Virus record (IMG/VR): IMGVR_UViG_3300025276_000248
Coordinates: 1 to 21,713 of that record
Length of the DNA stretch: 21,713 bases
Strand: one strand, 5' to 3'
Source of the DNA: a virus
The notes beneath the pieces were generated by a model. The model was not told the origin of the DNA, did not search any database, and saw only the letters and a program-made list of their open reading frames with translations. The position numbers and the translations under genes are program-made. Positions 6,187 through 21,709 of this stretch are shown in pieces. Each line of letters starts with the position of its first letter. Position 1 is the first letter of the stretch.

Positions 6187-9100
6187 ATGGCTGAAGCTAA
6201 AATTACACAGGTAAATCCTACTTCATTTGAACTAGAAGAATACTCAGTTGCAGATGAAAATCTTATTTCTTCCATAGAAATAGAAACTTTATTTGATCCT
6301 CAAACAGATTATATAGAATATTTCGTATATAATCCTAATAATGGAGGTCAAGTAAACCCCCCATTCGATTCACCTGCTAATTATAATAATTATACTTTAG
6401 AAGATAATATATTAGCTATTAATCCTGAAGAAGATCTATTTATAAATGGGTTTGAAGAGGGTACTTATAATACATTTTACAATTTCCTTTCATTAAGATT
6501 ATCATCTAACTTCTCCCAGAGATATTATATATCAGAAATTTCTGCTGATAGAACAGAAGTTAGACTAACCTCTAATGATATATCTACAGAAGAAATAATT
6601 GCTTCTACTACAGAATATATTCAAGAAAGAAACTCAGCTGAGTTCTTCCCCGATTTTTATTTAAATTTTGGTAATAACCAATTAGTAATAGCAAATAATG
6701 TTTTATTAGATGTAGATAACGTTTTAATAAAATTATATGATCCTTTACCTCCCCAATATCAATTAAAATCTACATTATGGGTAGTAGAACAAGTAGCTGA
6801 CCCTATAGCATATTTAATTGATTTACCATTTGAACCTATAATAGTTGATAACTCTATTAGGATCAAAGGTCCTAATATTAATCTACCTGTAAAAGGTCAA
6901 GTTAATAATTCTACAGAAGAGGTAGACTTTACTAGTTTAATTGAAACTTCAGTAACATCTTCATTACAACAAATTAATAGTTTTTATGCTGATCCAAGTG
7001 TAAAAATAAATGTAGATTACAATGAGTACAGTAATTTTATTAATTTCTCCTCAGCTCAGAAACGTACTAGTAACTTCTTTTATAAACTAGGACAAATAGA
7101 AAGTTGGACTTCAACAGCTGCATTAGGGTCAAACCAAATAAATTCTTCAGTTTCTAGCTCAGTAGCTTTTTATGAAAATAAAATTAATGAAACTATTGAT
7201 GGGTTTGATAATTTTGAATATTTTCTATATTATACATCAGGTTCAGTCAAACCCTACCCAAAAACAAATACTGAAGAACCCTACGATCAGGCATCTACAA
7301 CAAGTATATTAGGTCAAAATTGGATTACATCTAGTTTAGAAAGTGCTGAAGCGTACGATGTAAATAACAAAAATTGGATTTACTATGCTATCCCAGAATA
7401 CTTAAGGGAAGATACAGCAAACCAACCATATTTAGATTTTTCGAATATGGTAGGTCATTTTTATGACGAAAATATATGGGTATACATCAAAGATATTACG
7501 AACAAATGGGATAATGATAATCGTATTGATTCAGGAATTTCACGCGATTTAATCGCACAACAATTACGTGATTTAGGTTTTAATCTATATGAGAACCAAT
7601 TTAGTTCATTTAATCTATTTTCAGCTACTTTAGGTTTAACACCATCAGGAAGCTTTTTCCCATTCCCCAATATGACAGGTTCTTTACCTACACCAAGTGG
7701 GTTTGAATATGTAAATGCTTCTATAACAGGTTCAAATGAGATTTTACCTCAAGATGATATAAAAAAACGTATCTATAAACGTATTTATAACAATTTACCT
7801 TACTTATATAAGAAAAAAGGTACAGTTGATGGTATTAGAACATTAGCTACAATATATGGTATCCCAAATACATTACTTAGAATTGATGAATTTGGTGGTA
7901 AAGATAAAGATAATACTAACGATTGGGATTATTGGTTTGAACAATTTAATTATGCTTATTCAACAGGAGATGACGGAATTATTAGTTCAGATTGGGGTGT
8001 AAATACAGATTGGACATCCCCAGATGATGTTCCTGCATCTTTACAATTTAGATTTCAACTTCCTCCTTCATCCTCTAACTCACCTGCTTCACAGTCTTTA
8101 TGGACTTTAGATAATGGTAGAGATGTAAGATTAGTTTTAGAATATGATACTACACTTTTAGATTCTGGATCATTTAGTGGTTCAATTGCTGATCCTAATA
8201 ACCAATATGCCAATTTAAAGTTTTATCCTAACTTTAATGGAGATGCTACAGAATTTGCTAATGTATCTTTGCCATTTTTAAATGGTGGGTGGTGGTCTGT
8301 TATGGTTAATCGTGATGCAGGAGATTTTGAATTAATAGCAGCCAATAAAATATATTCTGGGAGTAATGGTTCCTCTTTAGGATTTATAGCTTCTTCCTCT
8401 ATAAATTCAGATGATGGTGCCTGGTTTAGTTCAACTAATTCATACTTTCCTACCTTAGGTGGCATTACAGGATATACTGATTTTAGCGGTTCATATCAAG
8501 AAATTAAATATTATAATACACAAATTTCTCATAGTGTATTTAAAGATTACGTAATGAATCCTCAATCTATTGAGGGTAATACTATTAATAGTGCTCCTGA
8601 TGAATTAATATTTAGAGCAGCATTAGGAGGTGAGCTATACACAGGTTCAGTTTCAATACATCCTAAAGTAACAGGTTCTTGGGATACAGTAAATTCATTT
8701 GCTGCTAATTCAAACTTTACAATTACTGAAGGTAATTTTGCTGTAAATAGAGAATATGTGTTTATGGACCAACCAGCAGTTGGTATCAAAAACCGCATTA
8801 CAGATAAAATAAGACAAGTAGCTTTAAATCTACCTGAAGGTGATCAACAATTATCTAATATTAGATCTATACAACAAGATACTGAAATAGATGATGCCTA
8901 TACTGATACAGTAAATCAAGTAGAGGTAGCATTATCTCCAACTAATCAAATTAATGATGATATTATTAATTCAATTGGTTATCTAAATATTGGAGAGTAT
9001 ATAGGTGATCCTAGACAAATTTCATCTAGCTCTACTAGCTACCCAGACTTAAATGTTTTAAGAGATGAATATTTCCTTAAATATACAAGCAATTACGATT

Positions 9101-11814
9101 GGAATGATTTTATTAGATTAATTAAATTTTTTGATAATTCACTTTGGAAAACAATCAAAGACTTTATCCCATCTAAAGTATCAGCAGTTACAGGTATTTC
9201 TATTAAACAACACTTATTAGAAAGACAAAAATATCCTGAACCACAAGTCTCATATTCTGAACCTTACTACACAGGTAGTATAGGTCAAATTGCTGGGTTA
9301 TTAGATGGTCAAAGAATATTCACAGCTTCAAGCGATTTTGAATCATTTCCAATTGTTGTTCCATCTGGTTCAGATGGTGGTACTTTACCTAGTTTTGTAT
9401 TAGGTACTAATTATACAGAATTTGCATATCCAGGAGCAATTAATGTAACTCAAAGTTGGAATGGTGCTAATGTTACACCATTTGGATTTGAAACGTTTAC
9501 TCAAGATGATGCTCGCGAATTTGTAGATGGTGAATTTAGTGGTTCAGAATTTATTGTTACCAATGGAGAGTTAAATCCAGGCTGTGATGATATTAAAGTA
9601 GCAGATTCTACAAATATTACTTTTGATATAGCTCACGCTACGTTTAATGGTGATGGTAAAACCCTATCTCCAGCTGTTATTCAAACCCCATTTTCTGGTC
9701 CTTCTCCTAGTTTTATAGCCGGAGCCAAAATTCTATCTACAGGAGATTTAAATATGTGGTGGAGTTCTACTAGAGCTATAGTAGATAATGGAGCCTCTGG
9801 AAAAATCTACACTGATACTTTTAAAGCAGAATATATAGCTATTAGTAAAACCTCTAAAAATGGATTAGATTTAACTAATATTATTCCTAATGTTAAAGAA
9901 TTTACAATATTAACATCAGCGCTAGCTCCAACTCAAACCGGTGCTACTAGTGTATCAACTTCAACAACAACTCTAACTCTTACAGCTCTACTTAATAACG
10001 AGTATCCCGATAGTTATGTATTTAAAGTATCATCAGATGCTAGTATTGCTTTAGTTAGTAGTATCCCACCAGGAGATCCAGCACCCGTACCTAATCCCGT
10101 AGTAATACCTACACAAAATGATATTTTATCTGTATTAGATCCATTTTTTAATGGTGATTTTAGTAATAGTGATTGTAATGCTATTATCAATAATGTTTTA
10201 ATTCCAAGACAAAGTAAAATTTTCTGGGAGTTAGATTATTCTACTAATGCTATACAAGCGGTAAACCAACAAGCAATAATTAGTGCTTCGCAACAAGGTG
10301 GTGATTTACCAAAAGCATTTATTCAAGATTATAATTACTATTCAACACCAATTTTAAGACGTAATTATTTAGGAGCTAAATCAACATCACCCGATTTTAA
10401 TGAATTATCAACAGCAGGTGGATTCGGTCAGTTACCTGTAGTACAAAGTGAAGGATACTATTTTGCATTCTTTAACTGGGTAGGAGGTACTTCTCCTGAA
10501 TGGGGTAATGAATTAGAAGATAGGAGTGCAGTAAACGTTAGATATTATATAGGTGAAGATGGAAATGTAATTGAACCTATTAATGATTCTAATGGTATTA
10601 ACTTAAGCATTGTTCAACAAAATTTTGAACAAGATTCAAATGCTATTTTAAGTTTTAATGATAAAGATGGTGCTACTTCTAAATTTACTAATTTAGAGGG
10701 TAAACATCCAATATTTAAAAGTGGTCAACTACCACAACCTATTATCTATACCCAAACTGCCAGCATTGGTAGTGATCCTGCATTACCTAATCAAGGTGGT
10801 GGTGCTATAAATTCAATTGATTTTGTTCAAGGTGACCAATCACCATCTCTACTTGTACAAAACTTTCAATTAACATCTACCCCTAATGGTTCACCAAATA
10901 GCGACTATGATATAGGTGCAGGTAATTCATATACTTTTAATAACATAATCAATATTGGAGGTGAAGCTTCATTCACTAACAGTAATACAAGATATGTAGT
11001 AAATTCTGCATCCCCTAACCAACCATCTGATTTAGGTATTACTTTAACAATAGATACTTTAATTAAATTATTACCTTCTAATAATTATGATTTCCAATCA
11101 AATTTACAAATTATAAAAAATGGTACTACTGTTTTAAAATCACAACAATTTAACTTTACAGGTAATGGTGCTCCGTTTGCCCAACTTACAGCTACCGATA
11201 ATTCAGCTAATAACAATGATTTTTATGAATTAGTATTAAATTCATATCAACAAGGAACCCCAGGTTCTGGTAATCCAATCCTATTATCTCCAATAATAGA
11301 TATTAATAATTCAAGATTTAATGTTAACCAACAACCCCTCCCTCAAGCAGGTCCCGTTACTAGATTTTGGGAAACCGCTGGTGCTTTAAATAAAATTAAA
11401 GCGTCATCTACCTTACCTGGACCACCAGTTTTAGGAGGTTTAAAAGCATATTATGGTCAACGTCAATCAGATATTTTAGGTAGTGGATTTAACCCAATTA
11501 CCCAAAATTTTATTGTTCAAATAGGTGATGAAATTAGATTTGATGGAACTGAAACTCAAACATACTATATAAATAATGTAGATACAACCGGGGGGGAAGT
11601 TATATTAACATTAGATAGAAACCAAACAGCTCAAAATTTAGATTATTTTTTACTTAGAAGATATGTGACAGATCCTTCATACTTAATATTAGAGGTAGAT
11701 AAACCAGCTGGTGGTACTTCAACTGGGGTTCTTACACCAGAATATTTCTATGGGGAAACCGAGGAAAAAATAGATAGTATACTCCAAAAACTTACAAGAG
11801 ACAATTTAATTTAA
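6187..11814 (+). CDS. Giant baseplate/tail protein, gpI/gp7-like segment plus LamG-like domain, 1875 aa
   Basis: Residues about 525-565 read KKRIYKRIYNNLPYLYKKKG, then TVDGIRTLATIYGIP, matching the LP-x-L-x-K-KGT-x-x-x-I-x-x-L-x-x-x-x-G pattern of P2 gpI-type tail proteins, equated with the core of T4 gp7. Upstream, residues about 420-480 hold a region familiar from marine phage baseplate proteins (FYDENIWVYIKDITNKWDND, GISRDLIAQQLRDLGFNLYE). Residues about 640-798 form a LamG/concanavalin-like beta-sandwich (VRLVLEYDTT, GGWWSVMVNRDAGDFELI, SGSYQEIKYYN), ending in VMNPQSIEGN. A further conserved-looking element, FVDGEFSGSEFIVTNGELNP, is near residue 1111. The last 700 residues are beta-rich and unassigned. 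Its position after gp25- and gp6-type genes fits the W-J-I order of contractile baseplates. It is much larger than P2 gpI and larger than T4 gp7 (1032 residues), so it probably combines wedge and receptor-side functions. The start follows TTAATTATGG. Confidence 0.72.
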   Translation: MAEAKITQVNPTSFELEEYSVADENLISSIEIETLFDPQTDYIEYFVYNPNNGGQVNPPFDSPANYNNYTLEDNILAINPEEDLFINGFEEGTYNTFYNFLSLRLSSNFSQRYYISEISADRTEVRLTSNDISTEEIIASTTEYIQERNSAEFFPDFYLNFGNNQLVIANNVLLDVDNVLIKLYDPLPPQYQLKSTLWVVEQVADPIAYLIDLPFEPIIVDNSIRIKGPNINLPVKGQVNNSTEEVDFTSLIETSVTSSLQQINSFYADPSVKINVDYNEYSNFINFSSAQKRTSNFFYKLGQIESWTSTAALGSNQINSSVSSSVAFYENKINETIDGFDNFEYFLYYTSGSVKPYPKTNTEEPYDQASTTSILGQNWITSSLESAEAYDVNNKNWIYYAIPEYLREDTANQPYLDFSNMVGHFYDENIWVYIKDITNKWDNDNRIDSGISRDLIAQQLRDLGFNLYENQFSSFNLFSATLGLTPSGSFFPFPNMTGSLPTPSGFEYVNASITGSNEILPQDDIKKRIYKRIYNNLPYLYKKKGTVDGIRTLATIYGIPNTLLRIDEFGGKDKDNTNDWDYWFEQFNYAYSTGDDGIISSDWGVNTDWTSPDDVPASLQFRFQLPPSSSNSPASQSLWTLDNGRDVRLVLEYDTTLLDSGSFSGSIADPNNQYANLKFYPNFNGDATEFANVSLPFLNGGWWSVMVNRDAGDFELIAANKIYSGSNGSSLGFIASSSINSDDGAWFSSTNSYFPTLGGITGYTDFSGSYQEIKYYNTQISHSVFKDYVMNPQSIEGNTINSAPDELIFRAALGGELYTGSVSIHPKVTGSWDTVNSFAANSNFTITEGNFAVNREYVFMDQPAVGIKNRITDKIRQVALNLPEGDQQLSNIRSIQQDTEIDDAYTDTVNQVEVALSPTNQINDDIINSIGYLNIGEYIGDPRQISSSSTSYPDLNVLRDEYFLKYTSNYDWNDFIRLIKFFDNSLWKTIKDFIPSKVSAVTGISIKQHLLERQKYPEPQVSYSEPYYTGSIGQIAGLLDGQRIFTASSDFESFPIVVPSGSDGGTLPSFVLGTNYTEFAYPGAINVTQSWNGANVTPFGFETFTQDDAREFVDGEFSGSEFIVTNGELNPGCDDIKVADSTNITFDIAHATFNGDGKTLSPAVIQTPFSGPSPSFIAGAKILSTGDLNMWWSSTRAIVDNGASGKIYTDTFKAEYIAISKTSKNGLDLTNIIPNVKEFTILTSALAPTQTGATSVSTSTTTLTLTALLNNEYPDSYVFKVSSDASIALVSSIPPGDPAPVPNPVVIPTQNDILSVLDPFFNGDFSNSDCNAIINNVLIPRQSKIFWELDYSTNAIQAVNQQAIISASQQGGDLPKAFIQDYNYYSTPILRRNYLGAKSTSPDFNELSTAGGFGQLPVVQSEGYYFAFFNWVGGTSPEWGNELEDRSAVNVRYYIGEDGNVIEPINDSNGINLSIVQQNFEQDSNAILSFNDKDGATSKFTNLEGKHPIFKSGQLPQPIIYTQTASIGSDPALPNQGGGAINSIDFVQGDQSPSLLVQNFQLTSTPNGSPNSDYDIGAGNSYTFNNIINIGGEASFTNSNTRYVVNSASPNQPSDLGITLTIDTLIKLLPSNNYDFQSNLQIIKNGTTVLKSQQFNFTGNGAPFAQLTATDNSANNNDFYELVLNSYQQGTPGSGNPILLSPIIDINNSRFNVNQQPLPQAGPVTRFWETAGALNKIKASSTLPGPPVLGGLKAYYGQRQSDILGSGFNPITQNFIVQIGDEIRFDGTETQTYYINNVDTTGGEVILTLDRNQTAQNLDYFLLRRYVTDPSYLILEVDKPAGGTSTGVLTPEYFYGETEEKIDSILQKLTRDNLI

Positions 11815-11874: not shown

Positions 11875-12534
11875 ATGGGATATTTAAATAATTCAGTAGT
11901 AACAGTAGATGCTATCCTTACAACAAAGGGTAGAGAGTTACTTGCTAAAAACGATGGTACATTCCGTATCACACAGTTTGCACTAGCAGATGATGAAATA
12001 GATTATACACTTTATAATCCAACTCACCCTTCAGGTTCAGCTTACTACGGTCAAGCTATTGAAAACATGCCTCTATTAGAAGCATTTCCTGATGAAACTC
12101 AAATCATGAAATATAAACTTACTACTTTACCACGTGGTACTGCTAAGATGCCAATCTTAGATGTAGGTTATACTTCAATCGTAATTAGACAAGGTGCTTC
12201 ATTAGCAATTACCCCACAAACTCTAAATTATTTAGGTGGTAACCAGAACGAAGCTTCAGGTTATACTGCTACTATTTCAGATGTTAGATTATTATCTACG
12301 TTTGAAGGTGTTGGTATTGATACACTCTCAACAGATGCTTTAAATGTTAATTCAACTACTACATTAGGTACTAACGTATCAGCAACAGTAATAGGTACAA
12401 CAATTAACCTTAGAGCAACTACAGTTAATACATTATTTGGTGCTAACACTGCGTTATATGCTACAATGACAGTTGTAGGTAGAGATAGTGGTGCAAGATT
12501 ACAAGTACCAATCACCATAACTAAAGTATCCTAA
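11875..12534 (+). CDS. Conserved phage structural protein with C-terminal Ig-like domain, 219 aa
   Basis: The first 120 residues (MGYLNNSVVTVDAILTTKGR, FRITQFALADDEIDYTLYN, SAYYGQAIENMPLLEAFPDE) match a well-conserved but functionally undefined structural protein that I recall from marine T4-like phage genomes. Residues about 125-219 look like an Ig-like beta-sandwich: alternating strands with Thr/Val-rich turns (NVSATVIGTTINLRATTV, LYATMTVVGRDSGARLQVPI). Ig-like domains on phage structural proteins are usually surface-exposed and may aid weak attachment to carbohydrates. It is the first gene after a probable promoter and lies two bases upstream of the next structural gene. A role in the tail/baseplate periphery or neck is inferred from neighbours; nothing in the sequence shows an enzymatic function. 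Confidence 0.65.
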   Translation: MGYLNNSVVTVDAILTTKGRELLAKNDGTFRITQFALADDEIDYTLYNPTHPSGSAYYGQAIENMPLLEAFPDETQIMKYKLTTLPRGTAKMPILDVGYTSIVIRQGASLAITPQTLNYLGGNQNEASGYTATISDVRLLSTFEGVGIDTLSTDALNVNSTTTLGTNVSATVIGTTINLRATTVNTLFGANTALYATMTVVGRDSGARLQVPITITKVS

Positions 12535-14551: not shown

Positions 14552-17500
14552 ATGGGAAAAGGAACCGATAGACTAGAAAATATATTTGACCCCACAGTTG
14601 ATGAAATCAACCAGGGGTATACCATAAACGCTTGGCATGTATCACAATCAGTAAATGCCTTTACAGGTACAGGAAGTTTTGATATTGATATTGATGGAAG
14701 TTTAACCGTTACTGGTTCAATTTACCATATGGATGCACAAGATGCTAATGGTGTTGTAAATAACGTAGTAATTAGAGACGTATCTACAGGAGAATATTTT
14801 GTAACTGGTTCTTGGGGCGGTAACACCTCTGGTACCTCAGGTATAGACGGAACATCAGGAAGCTCAGGTTCATCAGGTACATCAGGCTCATCAGGTAGCT
14901 CGGGTACTTCAGGTTCAAGCGGTAGTTCAGGTACATCTGGTAGTTCAGGTTCTTCTGGTACTTCAGGTGCCGACGGTTCTTCAGGTTCAAGTGGTACATC
15001 AGGTGCAGACGGTTCATCAGGTTCATCAGGAACTTCAGGCGCTGATGGTTCTTCAGGTTCAAGCGGTACTTCAGGTGATTCAGGAAGTTCAGGTTCATCT
15101 GGTACTTCAGGTGCTGATGGTAGCTCAGGCTCATCAGGTACTTCAGGTACTGATGGTGTAGACGGTTCAAGTGGTTCATCAGGAACCTCAGGTGCAGATG
15201 GTAGCTCAGGCTCATCAGGAACTTCAGGTAATTCAGGTTCAAGCGGTAGCTCAGGAACTTCGGGTGCAGACGGTTCATCAGGTTCTTCAGGTACTTCAGG
15301 TGATTCAGGAAGTTCAGGCTCATCAGGTACTTCAGGTGATTCAGGAAGTTCAGGCTCATCAGGTACTTCAGGTGCTGACGGATCTTCAGGTTCATCAGGC
15401 ACATCTGGTGTAGACGGTTCGAGCGGTTCATCAGGTACTTCAGGTGTAGGAACAGACGGTTCATCTGGTTCATCAGGTACTTCAGGGGCAGACGGCCCTT
15501 CAGGTAGCTCAGGCTCATCAGGTACATCAGGTTCAAGTGGTAGCTCAGGTACTTCAGGTACTGGTAGAGCTGTGTCTGTATTAGATGAAGGTGGTTCCTT
15601 GACTACAGACGTTCTTTCACTTAATTTTATAGGTGCAGGTGTAACAGCAACAGATCCAGGCTCAAATAATAATATAACAGTAACTATCCCAGGTGGGGGT
15701 GGTGGATCAGGTTCATCAGGTTCTTCTGGTACTTCAGGAGCAGACGGTTCAAGCGGTTCATCAGGAACTTCAGGCGATTCAGGTTCATCAGGTTCATCTG
15801 GAACCTCAGGTATAGGTACAGATGGTAGCTCAGGTAGTTCAGGTACTTCAGGTGTAGGAACAGACGGTTCAAGTGGTTCATCTGGTACTTCAGGCGCAGA
15901 TGGCTCAAGCGGTTCATCTGGTACTTCAGGAGCAGAAGGTTCAAGCGGTTCATCAGGAACTTCAGGCGATTCAGGTTCAAGTGGTAGCTCTGGTACTTCA
16001 GGTACTGGTCAAGCCATTACAGTTATAGATGAAGTTACCACATTAACTACAGACGTATCTAAATTCACATTTTTAGGTGCTGGAGTAACAGCTGCTAATA
16101 GTGGTACTGAAGTAACAGTAACTATCCCAGGCGGTGGTGGTGGATCTGGATCAAGCGGTTCATCAGGTACATCAGGTTCAAGCGGTAGTTCAGGTACATC
16201 AGGAGAAGCAGGCTCCTCAGGCTCATCAGGTACCTCAGGCGAGGCCGGATCCAGTGGTTCATCCGGAACTTCAGGCTCATCAGGTTCAAGCGGTACTTCA
16301 GGATCAAGTGGTTCAAGCGGTACTTCAGGAGAAGCAGGCTCAAGTGGTAGCTCAGGTACTTCAGGCGATTCAGGTTCATCAGGTTCAAGTGGAACCTCAG
16401 GTTCAAGCGGTTCTTCAGGAACTAGTGGTTCTTCAGGTTCATCAGGTACTTCAGGTAACGATGGTTCTTCAGGTTCATCAGGTACTTCAGGTAACGATGG
16501 TTCTTCAGGTTCATCAGGTACTTCAGGCGATTCAGGTTCAAGCGGTAGCTCTGGTACTTCAGGTGCAGATGGTAGCTCAGGTAGCTCAGGTACTTCAGGT
16601 ATAGGAACAGACGGTTCAAGTGGTTCTTCAGGAACCTCAGGCGCAGACGGTTCAAGCGGTTCATCAGGAACTTCAGGCGCAGATGGCTCAAGCGGTTCAT
16701 CTGGTACTTCAGGCGATTCAGGTTCAAGCGGTAGCTCTGGTACTTCAGGTGCAGATGGTAGCTCAGGTAGCTCAGGTAGCTCAGGTACTTCAGGTATAGG
16801 AACAGACGGTTCAAGTGGTTCTTCAGGAACCTCAGGCGCAGATGGCTCAAGCGGTTCATCTGGTACTTCAGGTTCAAGTGGTAGCTCTGGTACTTCAGGT
16901 ACTGGTCGAGCCATTACAGTTATAGATGAAGTTACCACATTAACTACAGACGTATCTAAATTCACATTTTTAGGTGCTGGAGTAACAGCTGCTAATAGTG
17001 GTACTGAAGTAACAGTAACTATCCCAGGCGGTGGTGGTGGATCTGGATCAAGCGGTTCATCAGGTACATCAGGTTCAAGCGGTAGTTCAGGTACATCAGG
17101 AGAAGCAGGCTCCTCAGGCTCATCAGGTACCTCAGGCGAGGCCGGATCCAGTGGTTCATCCGGAACTTCAGGCTCATCAGGTTCAAGCGGTACTTCAGGA
17201 TCAAGTGGTTCAAGCGGTACTTCAGGAGAAGCAGGCTCAAGTGGTAGCTCAGGTACTTCAGGCGATTCAGGTTCATCAGGTTCAAGTGGAACCTCAGGTT
17301 CAAGCGGTTCTTCAGGAACTAGTGGTTCTTCAGGTTCATCAGGTACTTCAGGTAACGATGGTTCTTCAGGTTCATCAGGTACTTCAGGTAACGATGGTTC
17401 TTCAGGTTCATCAGGTACTTCAGGCGATTCAGGTTCAAGCGGTAGCTCTGGTACTTCAGGTGCAGATGGTAGCTCAGGTAGCTCAGGTACTTCAGGTATA

Positions 17501-18682
17501 GGAACAGACGGTTCAAGTGGTTCTTCAGGAACCTCAGGCGCAGACGGTTCAAGCGGTTCATCAGGAACTTCAGGCGCAGATGGCTCAAGCGGTTCATCTG
17601 GTACTTCAGGCGATTCAGGTTCAAGCGGTAGCTCTGGTACTTCAGGTGCAGATGGTAGCTCAGGTAGCTCAGGTAGCTCAGGTACTTCAGGTATAGGAAC
17701 AGACGGTTCAAGTGGTTCTTCAGGAACCTCAGGCGCAGATGGCTCAAGCGGTTCATCTGGTACTTCAGGTTCAAGTGGTAGCTCTGGTACTTCAGGTACT
17801 GGTCGAGCCATTACAGTTATAGATGAAGTTACCACATTAACTACAGACGTATCTAAATTCACATTTTTAGGTGCTGGAGTAACAGCTGCTAATAGTGGTA
17901 CTGAAGTAACAGTAACTATCCCAGGTGGTGGTGGTGGTGGTTCTCAAAATGTATTTACTACTTCTTCAGTTTCAAATTCAGGAGTTAAACAAGCATCTAC
18001 TTCCCGAATTAAAACTACTACTGTAAACGATGATTTAACATTTAATTTTATAAATGAAGTTTCAGGTTCAACAAATACTGCAACAAAAACTTTAACAGTT
18101 TCATCCTTACCTTCCCCACAACTTTATCTTAAAAAAAATGAAGAAACTGGTCAAGGTGGTGCACAAACTATCGCATCTGATACTACTGGAAGTATAACTT
18201 GGAAAGATGGAGCTAATAATTATCAAGATAACGATCAATGGTTTACAGTTAATGGTGATAATCATTTTATATATGATCCTAACAACTCCACTACCTACTT
18301 CCAACTACTTCAAGAAGGTCTTTATGAATTTGATCTCCAATTAAAAACTGTAGGTAATTCTTCAGGTCAAAATCAATTTAGCCGTATCTCCTTTATCAGA
18401 GCCAGTTTACTTACACCCCCAATCCCAACCTTTATAGAGGTTATAGGAATGGGAGCTAATAATGCAAATAATACTAGTGCAAGGAAAGTCTCAACTACTT
18501 TTTATCTTTCTCAAGATAATATAGACAATCTAGAGAATTATTTTTATGTTACTACTGGAACCAGCGTTGATTTTGGTGCGGCAGCACAATCCCTACTTGT
18601 TGGAGGTGGTGGGTCTGATGGTATAAAAGGTAATTACTGTTCAATTAAATATATTTCTGATGCTGGTAAAGGTAGTCTATAA
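14552..18682 (+). CDS. Collagen-like tail fibre with repeated beta modules and C-terminal head, 1376 aa
   Basis: Residues 1-90 form an N-terminal domain like the attachment end of phage fibres (INAWHVSQSVNAFTGTGSF, GSLTVTGSIYHMD). Four long Gly-X-Y blocks (residues about 91-337, 384-486, 530-785 and 829-1084) are built mainly from SSG, TSG, ADG, DSG, EAG and NDG triplets. They are separated by four copies of a ~45-residue beta module (AITVIDEVTTLTTDVSKFTF, LGAGVTAANSGTEVTVTIP, then a Gly run) near residues 338, 487, 786 and 1085; the first copy is divergent. Residues about 1131-1376 form a separate beta-rich C-terminal domain (GLYEFDLQLKTVG, FSRISFIRASL, ARKVSTTFYLS) that resembles a C1q/TNF-like trimeric head by strand pattern only. 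It likely forms a trimeric host-contacting fibre. The stalk has only one proline in its triplets, unlike animal collagen. An exact 897-bp tandem duplication lies within the gene. Confidence 0.8.
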   Translation: MGKGTDRLENIFDPTVDEINQGYTINAWHVSQSVNAFTGTGSFDIDIDGSLTVTGSIYHMDAQDANGVVNNVVIRDVSTGEYFVTGSWGGNTSGTSGIDGTSGSSGSSGTSGSSGSSGTSGSSGSSGTSGSSGSSGTSGADGSSGSSGTSGADGSSGSSGTSGADGSSGSSGTSGDSGSSGSSGTSGADGSSGSSGTSGTDGVDGSSGSSGTSGADGSSGSSGTSGNSGSSGSSGTSGADGSSGSSGTSGDSGSSGSSGTSGDSGSSGSSGTSGADGSSGSSGTSGVDGSSGSSGTSGVGTDGSSGSSGTSGADGPSGSSGSSGTSGSSGSSGTSGTGRAVSVLDEGGSLTTDVLSLNFIGAGVTATDPGSNNNITVTIPGGGGGSGSSGSSGTSGADGSSGSSGTSGDSGSSGSSGTSGIGTDGSSGSSGTSGVGTDGSSGSSGTSGADGSSGSSGTSGAEGSSGSSGTSGDSGSSGSSGTSGTGQAITVIDEVTTLTTDVSKFTFLGAGVTAANSGTEVTVTIPGGGGGSGSSGSSGTSGSSGSSGTSGEAGSSGSSGTSGEAGSSGSSGTSGSSGSSGTSGSSGSSGTSGEAGSSGSSGTSGDSGSSGSSGTSGSSGSSGTSGSSGSSGTSGNDGSSGSSGTSGNDGSSGSSGTSGDSGSSGSSGTSGADGSSGSSGTSGIGTDGSSGSSGTSGADGSSGSSGTSGADGSSGSSGTSGDSGSSGSSGTSGADGSSGSSGSSGTSGIGTDGSSGSSGTSGADGSSGSSGTSGSSGSSGTSGTGRAITVIDEVTTLTTDVSKFTFLGAGVTAANSGTEVTVTIPGGGGGSGSSGSSGTSGSSGSSGTSGEAGSSGSSGTSGEAGSSGSSGTSGSSGSSGTSGSSGSSGTSGEAGSSGSSGTSGDSGSSGSSGTSGSSGSSGTSGSSGSSGTSGNDGSSGSSGTSGNDGSSGSSGTSGDSGSSGSSGTSGADGSSGSSGTSGIGTDGSSGSSGTSGADGSSGSSGTSGADGSSGSSGTSGDSGSSGSSGTSGADGSSGSSGSSGTSGIGTDGSSGSSGTSGADGSSGSSGTSGSSGSSGTSGTGRAITVIDEVTTLTTDVSKFTFLGAGVTAANSGTEVTVTIPGGGGGGSQNVFTTSSVSNSGVKQASTSRIKTTTVNDDLTFNFINEVSGSTNTATKTLTVSSLPSPQLYLKKNEETGQGGAQTIASDTTGSITWKDGANNYQDNDQWFTVNGDNHFIYDPNNSTTYFQLLQEGLYEFDLQLKTVGNSSGQNQFSRISFIRASLLTPPIPTFIEVIGMGANNANNTSARKVSTTFYLSQDNIDNLENYFYVTTGTSVDFGAAAQSLLVGGGGSDGIKGNYCSIKYISDAGKGSL
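16012..16908 (+). repeat. Tandem direct repeat, copy 1 (897 bp), in collagen-like fibre gene
   Basis: Each copy encodes one beta module followed by one collagen-like block (299 residues, frame preserved). Base-by-base reading shows copy 1 identical to copy 2 at 16909-17805. Identity continues past the second copy to 17925, so the third beta-module copy is included. Upstream it reaches back to 15970 except for one difference at 16011 (A) versus 16908 (G), which changes Gln to Arg. Third-codon positions are identical too, whereas the earlier collagen-like blocks use scrambled synonymous Ser/Gly codons. Confidence 0.95.
16909..17805 (+). repeat. Tandem direct repeat, copy 2 (897 bp), in collagen-like fibre gene
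   Basis: This is the second copy of the 897-bp unit, directly adjoining the first and identical to it. The sequence continues to match the unit for another 120 bases, to 17925; at 17926 C becomes T (GGC to GGT) and the sequence then runs into the unique C-terminal head. The structure looks like an unequal-exchange or slippage product between neighbouring beta-module copies. Confidence 0.95.
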
Positions 18683-18692
18683 TAATTAAAAT

Positions 18693-19148
18693 ATGAATTG
18701 GTTATATAAAGGGGAAGAAATGACTTCTTTGGAGTCATTTCCCCCATCAACATTCGGTTTCGTATATAGAGTAATCCACATCCCAAGTGGTAAAGCTTAT
18801 ATAGGAAAAAAATTCGTTAAATTTACTCGTAAAGCTAAATTAACTAAAAAAGATTTAGCATTATATGAAGGTACTAAAGGTAGAAAACCATCATACAAAC
18901 AAGTAGTAAAAGAAAGCGATTGGCAAACCTATTGGGGTTCAAATAAAACCCTAACGAACTTACTAGAGAACGAACCTATAGAGAATTTCAAACGTGAAAT
19001 TTTAACTTTGGCTACCTCAAAGAAGTTATTAACTTACGAGGAAACAAAAGCACAGTTTATCTACGAGGTATTAGAAAATCCAAACGATTTCTTCAACGAT
19101 AACATTCTCGGCAAGTTCTACACAAAAGACTTTGAGTCCCAAAAATAG
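18693..19148 (+). CDS. GIY-YIG family nuclease, Seg-like, 151 aa
   Basis: The GIY-YIG core is visible: GFVYRVIHI (residues 22-30) provides the GIY strand and AYIGKKF (35-41) the YIG strand. Arg46 lies eight residues past the YIG motif, near where the catalytic arginine is expected. A glutamate in YEETKAQF (115-122) could be the metal-binding residue. The middle has a signature I recall from T4-like phage members: ESDWQTYWGSNKTL (74-87) and FKREIL (99-104). Such proteins are DNA nucleases, often homing endonucleases of the Seg type; a diverged housekeeping role is also possible. No separate DNA-binding domain is seen at this length. I choose ATG 18693 because the N-terminal WLYKGEE resembles relatives; an in-frame ATG at 18720 lies inside a 9-bp hairpin. 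The gene sits at the junction between fibre and replication genes, a typical free-standing homing endonuclease location. Confidence 0.75.
   Translation: MNWLYKGEEMTSLESFPPSTFGFVYRVIHIPSGKAYIGKKFVKFTRKAKLTKKDLALYEGTKGRKPSYKQVVKESDWQTYWGSNKTLTNLLENEPIENFKREILTLATSKKLLTYEETKAQFIYEVLENPNDFFNDNILGKFYTKDFESQK
18717..18741 (+). other. Perfect 9-bp inverted repeat over the 5' end of the nuclease gene
   Basis: GAAATGACT (18717-18725) and AGTCATTTC (18733-18741) are exact reverse complements with a 7-base loop. In mRNA this would form a hairpin covering codons 9-17 of the GIY-YIG gene, including an in-frame ATG at 18720. There is no T-tract after it, only a run of C, so it does not look like an intrinsic terminator for the fibre gene. 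Hairpins restrain translation of some T4 homing endonuclease genes; a similar role here is inference. Confidence 0.5.
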
Positions 19149-20892: not shown

Positions 20893-20908
20893 TGGTAAAC
20901 GCGTGTTT

Positions 20909-21709
20909 ATGATATCGTTAGTACAATTATTAAATGAAGTAGAAGGTAACCCTAAAGCTATCATATTAGCTGGTGCTCCTGGTGCTGGGAAAGGTTATGT
21001 GTTAAAAGGTTTAGACTTAGGTGGTTTAAAAATAATGAATATTGATAACACATTTATCAGTATGCTTAAACAAGCCAACGTATCTTTAGATCTAAAAAAC
21101 GCTACACCTGAAGAAAGAAGCGAGCAAGCTAAAGCAATGGCTGCATCTAATAAAGAATTTAAAGGTGAAATCCAAGATACTATAGCAGGCAGAGAATCAT
21201 TTATTTTAGATGGTACGGCTGCTTCACTCAAGCAAACCACCTTACTTAAAGACCAATTAGAAGAAGCTGGGTATAGTGTATTTATGCTCTATGTTTATAC
21301 TGATCTAGAACGTTCACTTATTCAAAATCAAGACAGATTTGAAAAATCAGGTGGTGAAGATAGAAGTTTAGCACCAGCTATTGTATTGCGTACCTGGAAA
21401 AGTGTAACAGATAATTTAAAACCATATGCTGATTTATTTGGCAATAACTTTGCAGCAGTAGCTAATACATTAGAAGGTAATAAAATAAAAGATGTTGAAG
21501 ATATTCTTAAAACATATTTAGAACCATTTACACCCACAGGTACTAAACCTAAAACACCTGCCCAACAGGAAAAATCAAAACAACAAAAACTTGAGCTAAA
21601 TGCTGAAATTCAAGCTATGTTAAATGATGAATTTTTAGAAGATGTACTTACCTACACTGTATCTAAAGATGAGGCTCAAAGTAAACTACAGAATTTTTTA
21701 CGTTCATGA
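20909..21709 (+). CDS. P-loop kinase, zeta-toxin/AAA_33-like, 266 aa
   Basis: Residues 17-29 (AIILAGAPGAGKG) are a strong Walker A motif. NIDNTF (residues 44-49) fits a substrate-binding Asp, SFILDGTAAS (97-106) a Walker B-like strand, and VYTDLERSLIQNQDRF (129-144) with VLRTWKSV (159-166) a basic lid. This layout belongs to zeta-toxin-like and polynucleotide-kinase-like P-loop kinases; which substrate is phosphorylated cannot be read from the sequence. Residues about 205-235 are a Lys/Gln/Pro-rich linker (TKPKTPAQQEKSKQQK), and the C-terminal 35 residues form an extra helical segment. I prefer ATG 20909 over the in-frame GTG at 20903, because a transcript from the promoter at 20862-20892 should begin near 20899 and the ATG leaves a usable leader. 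No antitoxin-like partner is adjacent. The stop overlaps an ATG (ATGA at 21706-21709) that may start another gene cut by the window end. Confidence 0.7.
   Translation: MISLVQLLNEVEGNPKAIILAGAPGAGKGYVLKGLDLGGLKIMNIDNTFISMLKQANVSLDLKNATPEERSEQAKAMAASNKEFKGEIQDTIAGRESFILDGTAASLKQTTLLKDQLEEAGYSVFMLYVYTDLERSLIQNQDRFEKSGGEDRSLAPAIVLRTWKSVTDNLKPYADLFGNNFAAVANTLEGNKIKDVEDILKTYLEPFTPTGTKPKTPAQQEKSKQQKLELNAEIQAMLNDEFLEDVLTYTVSKDEAQSKLQNFLRS

Follow-up and report, generated by a model that had tools for sequence, protein, structure and literature searches.

The fibre gene and its surroundings

The window, that is the whole stretch of 21,713 nucleotides analysed here (IMG/VR record IMGVR_UViG_3300025276_000248), derives from an uncultured phage that is related to Flavobacterium phages, contractile-tailed and kin of Immutovirus. 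It carries a gene for a collagen-like tail fibre within a contractile-tail block, with baseplate wedge genes upstream, and the tail/baseplate location is supported by the presence of the same neighbours in three other loci (L005, L007 and L008). Of the named isolates, Flavobacterium phage immuto (genus Immutovirus) came closest in the searches and has a parallel tail block; the collagen-like stalk is absent from the two translated immuto fibre/spike proteins. Directly 3' of the fibre gene lies a SegE-like GIY-YIG gene (18693-19148), which is kept in many relatives and persists in L007, where the fibre is missing. Elsewhere in the window, an ORF of 1,875 amino acids (6187-11814) has no PHROG match and aligns poorly or not at all with the DNA of relatives around 9554-10125 and 10870-11436, and a Zeta-toxin-like P-loop kinase domain is found at 20903-21709 (Pfam, 2.8e-14).

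The fibre protein matches PHROG tail fibre families (down to 5.7e-94) and Pfam Collagen PF01391 (2.6e-99, in 16 stretches). It is composed of an N-terminal region, Gly-X-Y stalks that total about 825 residues, four beta modules of some 49 amino acids each and a C-terminal tip (Table 1). The N-terminal region, 81% identical to that of L005, was found in nine loci, and the fibres that have it in common range from 389 to 1,412 amino acids and differ in their number of modules. Because tips and stalks differ at this position, the fibre slot is variable in several ways. Ser, Gly and Thr abound in the stalk and Pro is nearly absent, a composition that leaves a triple helix uncertain. Assuming 0.286 nm per Gly-X-Y residue and every such residue triple-helical, the whole stalk would measure about 236 nm and one repeat unit about 70 nm. 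Two models of the tip, both of low confidence (pLDDT 45 and 52), gave as best Foldseek matches mostly TNF-family proteins, together with the needle of the cyanopodophage Pan3; on these models the tip is probably a jelly roll, which we treat as a lead only. A PDB sequence search with the tip returned no match, neither tip nor head matched isolate phages, and module, tip or head alone gave no PHROG match. Head and module had no relatives in genome_contigs, and the exact DNA pattern of the module had no match in viral_contigs, from which the closest records may have been withheld.

Table 1. Position of the fibre gene, its parts and the repeated stretch in the window
Feature	Position	Strand	Remarks
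Collagen-like tail fibre gene, 1,376 aa	14552..18682	+	ORF; PHROG; Pfam
N-terminal region, presumed anchor	14552..14830	+	kept in fibres with different tips
Beta module 1, older type	15557..15703	+	about 70% nt identity to modules 2-4
Matching stretch, first occurrence	15970..17028	+	41 bp + mismatch + 1,017 bp
Beta module 2 (Gln)	16001..16141	+	markers 16011 A, 16132 C
Stalk segment copy 1 (Gly-X-Y repeats)	16142..16897	+	
Matching stretch, second occurrence	16867..17925	+	offset 897
Beta module 3 (Arg)	16898..17038	+	markers 16908 G, 17029 C; marker recombinant of modules 2 and 4
Presumed diagnostic junction, 122 bp	16908..17029	+	from markers
Stalk segment copy 2	17039..17794	+	identical to copy 1
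Beta module 4 (Arg)	17795..17935	+	markers 17805 G, 17926 T
C-terminal tip, probably TNF/C1q-like jelly roll	18110..18679	+	low-confidence models, Foldseek

Anatomy of the repeat and stalk length in relatives

Within the fibre ORF a stretch is repeated in frame with a period of 897 bp (299 codons). The unit consists of one beta module and one stalk segment of about 250 amino acids, so that the stretch contains three near-identical modules and two identical stalk segments. A sequence-only reading of the window had described this repeat as a tandem match with 41 additional matching bases upstream and one Gln/Arg difference, and a base-by-base comparison confirmed each of these elements: positions 15970-16010 equal 16867-16907 (41 bp), the lone mismatch is A at 16011 against G at 16908, the following 1,017 bp are exact (16012-17028 equal 16909-17925), and identity ends at 17029 C / 17926 T. 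The 338 codons compared across the duplication are all equal, third positions included, whereas other identical-peptide blocks (at least nine amino acids, at all other offsets of the fibre gene) share only 54% of their codons. This comparison rules out chance identity of the repeat and bears out the earlier remark that the other collagen-like blocks differ in synonymous codons; the view that the event was recent, kept the frame and added 299 residues, one module plus one stalk segment, is also supported. Outside the window, exact repeats within a gene reach at most 113 bp in a set of about 50 collagen-like ORFs (that of the window counted), and exact direct repeats of at least 150 bp are absent from the other loci compared (L005-L174). 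An antisense ORF of 617 amino acids (16009-17862) falls inside the repeat and was regarded as a putative by-product of the repeat's composition, not as a gene.

Modules 2, 3 and 4 are 99% identical pairwise and are told apart by two bases only (Table 1), which form the pairs A-C, G-C and G-T, respectively. The middle module is thus a hybrid of the outer two, with the left marker of module 4 and the right marker of module 2, and because it is a marker recombinant the junction is placed within the 120-bp identical tract that separates the two markers. A molecule that carries G at 16908 together with C at 17029 is to be expected only when two or more units exist. The segment that spans these two positions fits single short reads, and provides a simple read-level marker for fibre-length variants in metagenomes.

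Relatives of the phage show that stalks can differ between otherwise nearly identical genomes. Three of them (L008, L009 and L090) have flanks that are 99.96-99.99% identical, with just three SNPs outside the fibre over the 11.7-11.8 kb compared. In L090:10367-10392, compared with L009, four SNPs within 15 bp agree with a block that lies 144 bp downstream (identity over 113 bp), a tract that appears conversion-like from its sequence. The fibres of these three also differ by a 108-bp in-frame stalk indel (mapped as L089:9201-9308 against L088) with a direct repeat of 29 bp at its ends, which is shorter than the usual final assembly k-mers. The indel and the four-SNP tract, both in near-identical relatives, suggest that exchange or conversion between repeats very probably changes stalks in this lineage. 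However, the indel is the lone length change observed between near-identical relatives, and it used a 29-bp stalk repeat and not a module, which counts against module exchange. Stalk-length variation as a general rule was rejected, as several other near-identical contig groups keep their fibre length; the stalks of these groups are mostly devoid of exact repeats of at least 30 bp. The searched records, from which those very close to the window may have been withheld, contained no further length state of the phage itself.

The module type of copies 2-4 is present once in L008 (86-87% nucleotide identity), where the module preceding the tip is of another type (64%), and the expansion in the window is therefore derived. 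The closest relative by the conserved gene at 11875-12534 is L007 (98%), which has no fibre gene at all: the two genes that flank it in the window lie 4 bp apart there (L007:12560-12720). A 735-kb megaphage (L175, LR756501.1) encodes a Ser/Gly/Thr-rich stalk protein of 3,488 amino acids, in which there is no exact repeat above 78 bp.

Probable origin of the repeat

These properties make it probable that the repeat is genuine: a tandem duplication, recent and in frame, of a unit made up of one stalk segment and one module. Should the duplication be genuine, which we consider likely but unproven, unequal exchange between modules accounts for it best. The ancestral gene would have carried module 2 (Gln), a stalk segment and module 4 (Arg), with 120 bp identical between the two modules. 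As the DNA replicated, two gene copies would have misaligned, so that module 4 of one lay against module 2 of the other, and a single crossover within the identical tract (16909-17028) would have produced the order module 2, stalk, hybrid module, stalk, module 4. The fibre would have gained about 70 nm if its stalk is triple-helical, with anchor and tip unchanged. The hybrid middle module matches the prediction of a single exchange between module copies; a false assembler join at the module would yield the same sequence. The sequence-only reading had proposed unequal exchange as a stalk-length switch: the position of the junction within a module, indicated by the three marker pairs, favours the exchange, and reversible or regulated switching is unsupported. 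The molecule as assembled, its exact number of units, a triple helix and any effect on adsorption are properties that we infer.

To evaluate the assembly, the k-mer sets of the repeat region written as one, two or three units were compared. The two- and three-unit forms have all their k-mers in common up to k=1018, so that they are not separable by k-mers up to this value and the copy number of units is unproven. The repeat could accordingly be real and its unit number wrong or mixed, with three or more units, or a mixture of lengths, reported as two. This possibility, which overlaps our preferred explanation, is a minority one, although stalk length does differ among near-identical relatives between samples; no other length of this particular phage was seen.

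An assembly artefact is somewhat less probable still, but the doubt already expressed on this point was justified. A one-unit genome could have given the window contig if the loop at the 120-bp shared module was walked twice, or if contig ends were joined there, since the one- and two-unit forms cannot be told apart by k-mer content up to k=121 and branch alike up to k=120. A false join would likewise be expected to leave exact identity, with its junction inside the tract that the modules share. In addition, the window record belongs to a metagenome-derived virus collection, and the lack of a comparable exact repeat in any other locus counts against a real duplication. On the other hand, at k=127 the one-unit form has no branching and the two-unit form has 6 private k-mers; a one-unit genome assembled with a final k of 127 therefore should not yield the window contig. 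Moreover, at repeat loops short-read assemblers break or collapse more commonly than they unroll, and a 120-bp repeat is within ordinary read-pair spans, two properties that argue against an artefact. Tandem repeats are nevertheless a known source of assembly errors, collapse included (PMC6868369). Read depth bears on this question in the opposite direction to that first proposed, where doubled depth across the repeat was to be the sign of an artefact: a contig with two units is expected to show 0.5x depth if there is one true unit, 1x if there are two and more than 1x if there are more than two, and doubled depth would mean about four units.

An older duplication held identical by gene conversion is improbable. 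The tract in L090 shows the kind of change that conversion would leave, but this explanation needs zero differences over 1,017 bp in a gene where other identical-peptide blocks share about half of their codons. The least credible proposal is that stalk length is switched by a programme to set host range or reach: elsewhere, length or domain-copy changes in viral fibre or collagen-like genes are tied to host range (PMC4281060, PMC7242381), but neither a dedicated recombinase nor an invertible element could be recognised next to the fibre gene, no alternative state was seen, and plain homologous exchange accounts for the anatomy.

If the duplication produced by unequal exchange is real, it is a fresh snapshot of fibre growth by a whole structural unit, with anchor and tip fixed and the exchange point located within 120 bp. 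A broader idea, that identical beta modules act as recombination handles by which the lineage adds or loses stalk units of about 70 nm, and that populations hold a ladder of fibre lengths, is doubtful and is put forward as speculation. The case also cautions that, for stalks of this kind, unit counts taken from public contigs are not reliable.

Comparison with known systems

Phage fibres of the collagen-like kind, with internal domains and stalks that vary, have been described (PMC3368898, PMC9437275). A limited literature search gave no report of a phage collagen-like fibre in which a whole unit is exactly duplicated. The EPclA and EPclB fibres of E. coli prophages resemble the window fibre in having Gly-X-Y stalks and terminal globular domains; EPclB has an internal non-collagen domain between two stalks, comparable to the window modules, and EPcl stalk lengths vary in multiples of three (PMC3368898). 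In contrast with the EPcl fibres, a Pfam scan of the window protein found no PfN, Pf2 or PfC domain, PF01391 being the only match. Its stalk is Ser/Thr-rich and Pro-poor, unlike EPclP stalks, in which Pro and charged residues are abundant, and the exact duplication that it carries has no described counterpart among EPcl fibres in the passages of PMC3368898 consulted. Siphophages of Gram-positive hosts likewise have small beta domains set between collagen-like linkers that vary in length; there the domains are carbohydrate-binding.

Duplication of a fibre segment is shared with the adhesin of T4 gene 37 (Tetart et al. 1996, cited in PMC4281060 and PMC6957217). There, a small adhesin domain was reportedly duplicated, with a host-range phenotype, whereas the window has duplicated a whole stalk unit. 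Guarani virophage (PMC7242381) resembles the window lineage in that a viral collagen-like gene underwent a repeat-associated in-frame length change; it differs in that the change is an 81-nt deletion, tied to host range, in a virophage of amoebal giant viruses, and not a duplication. The BclA spore filament, a bacterial spore protein and not a phage fibre, has a collagen-like stalk in which DNA repeats change filament length (Sylvestre et al. 2003, cited in PMC13188886), and unequal recombination or slippage has been proposed for collagen-like repeats (PMC13188886). Repeat-driven length change in repetitive fibres and collagen-like proteins is already known, and the window, if its duplication is real, presents such a change at the scale of one complete module and stalk segment.
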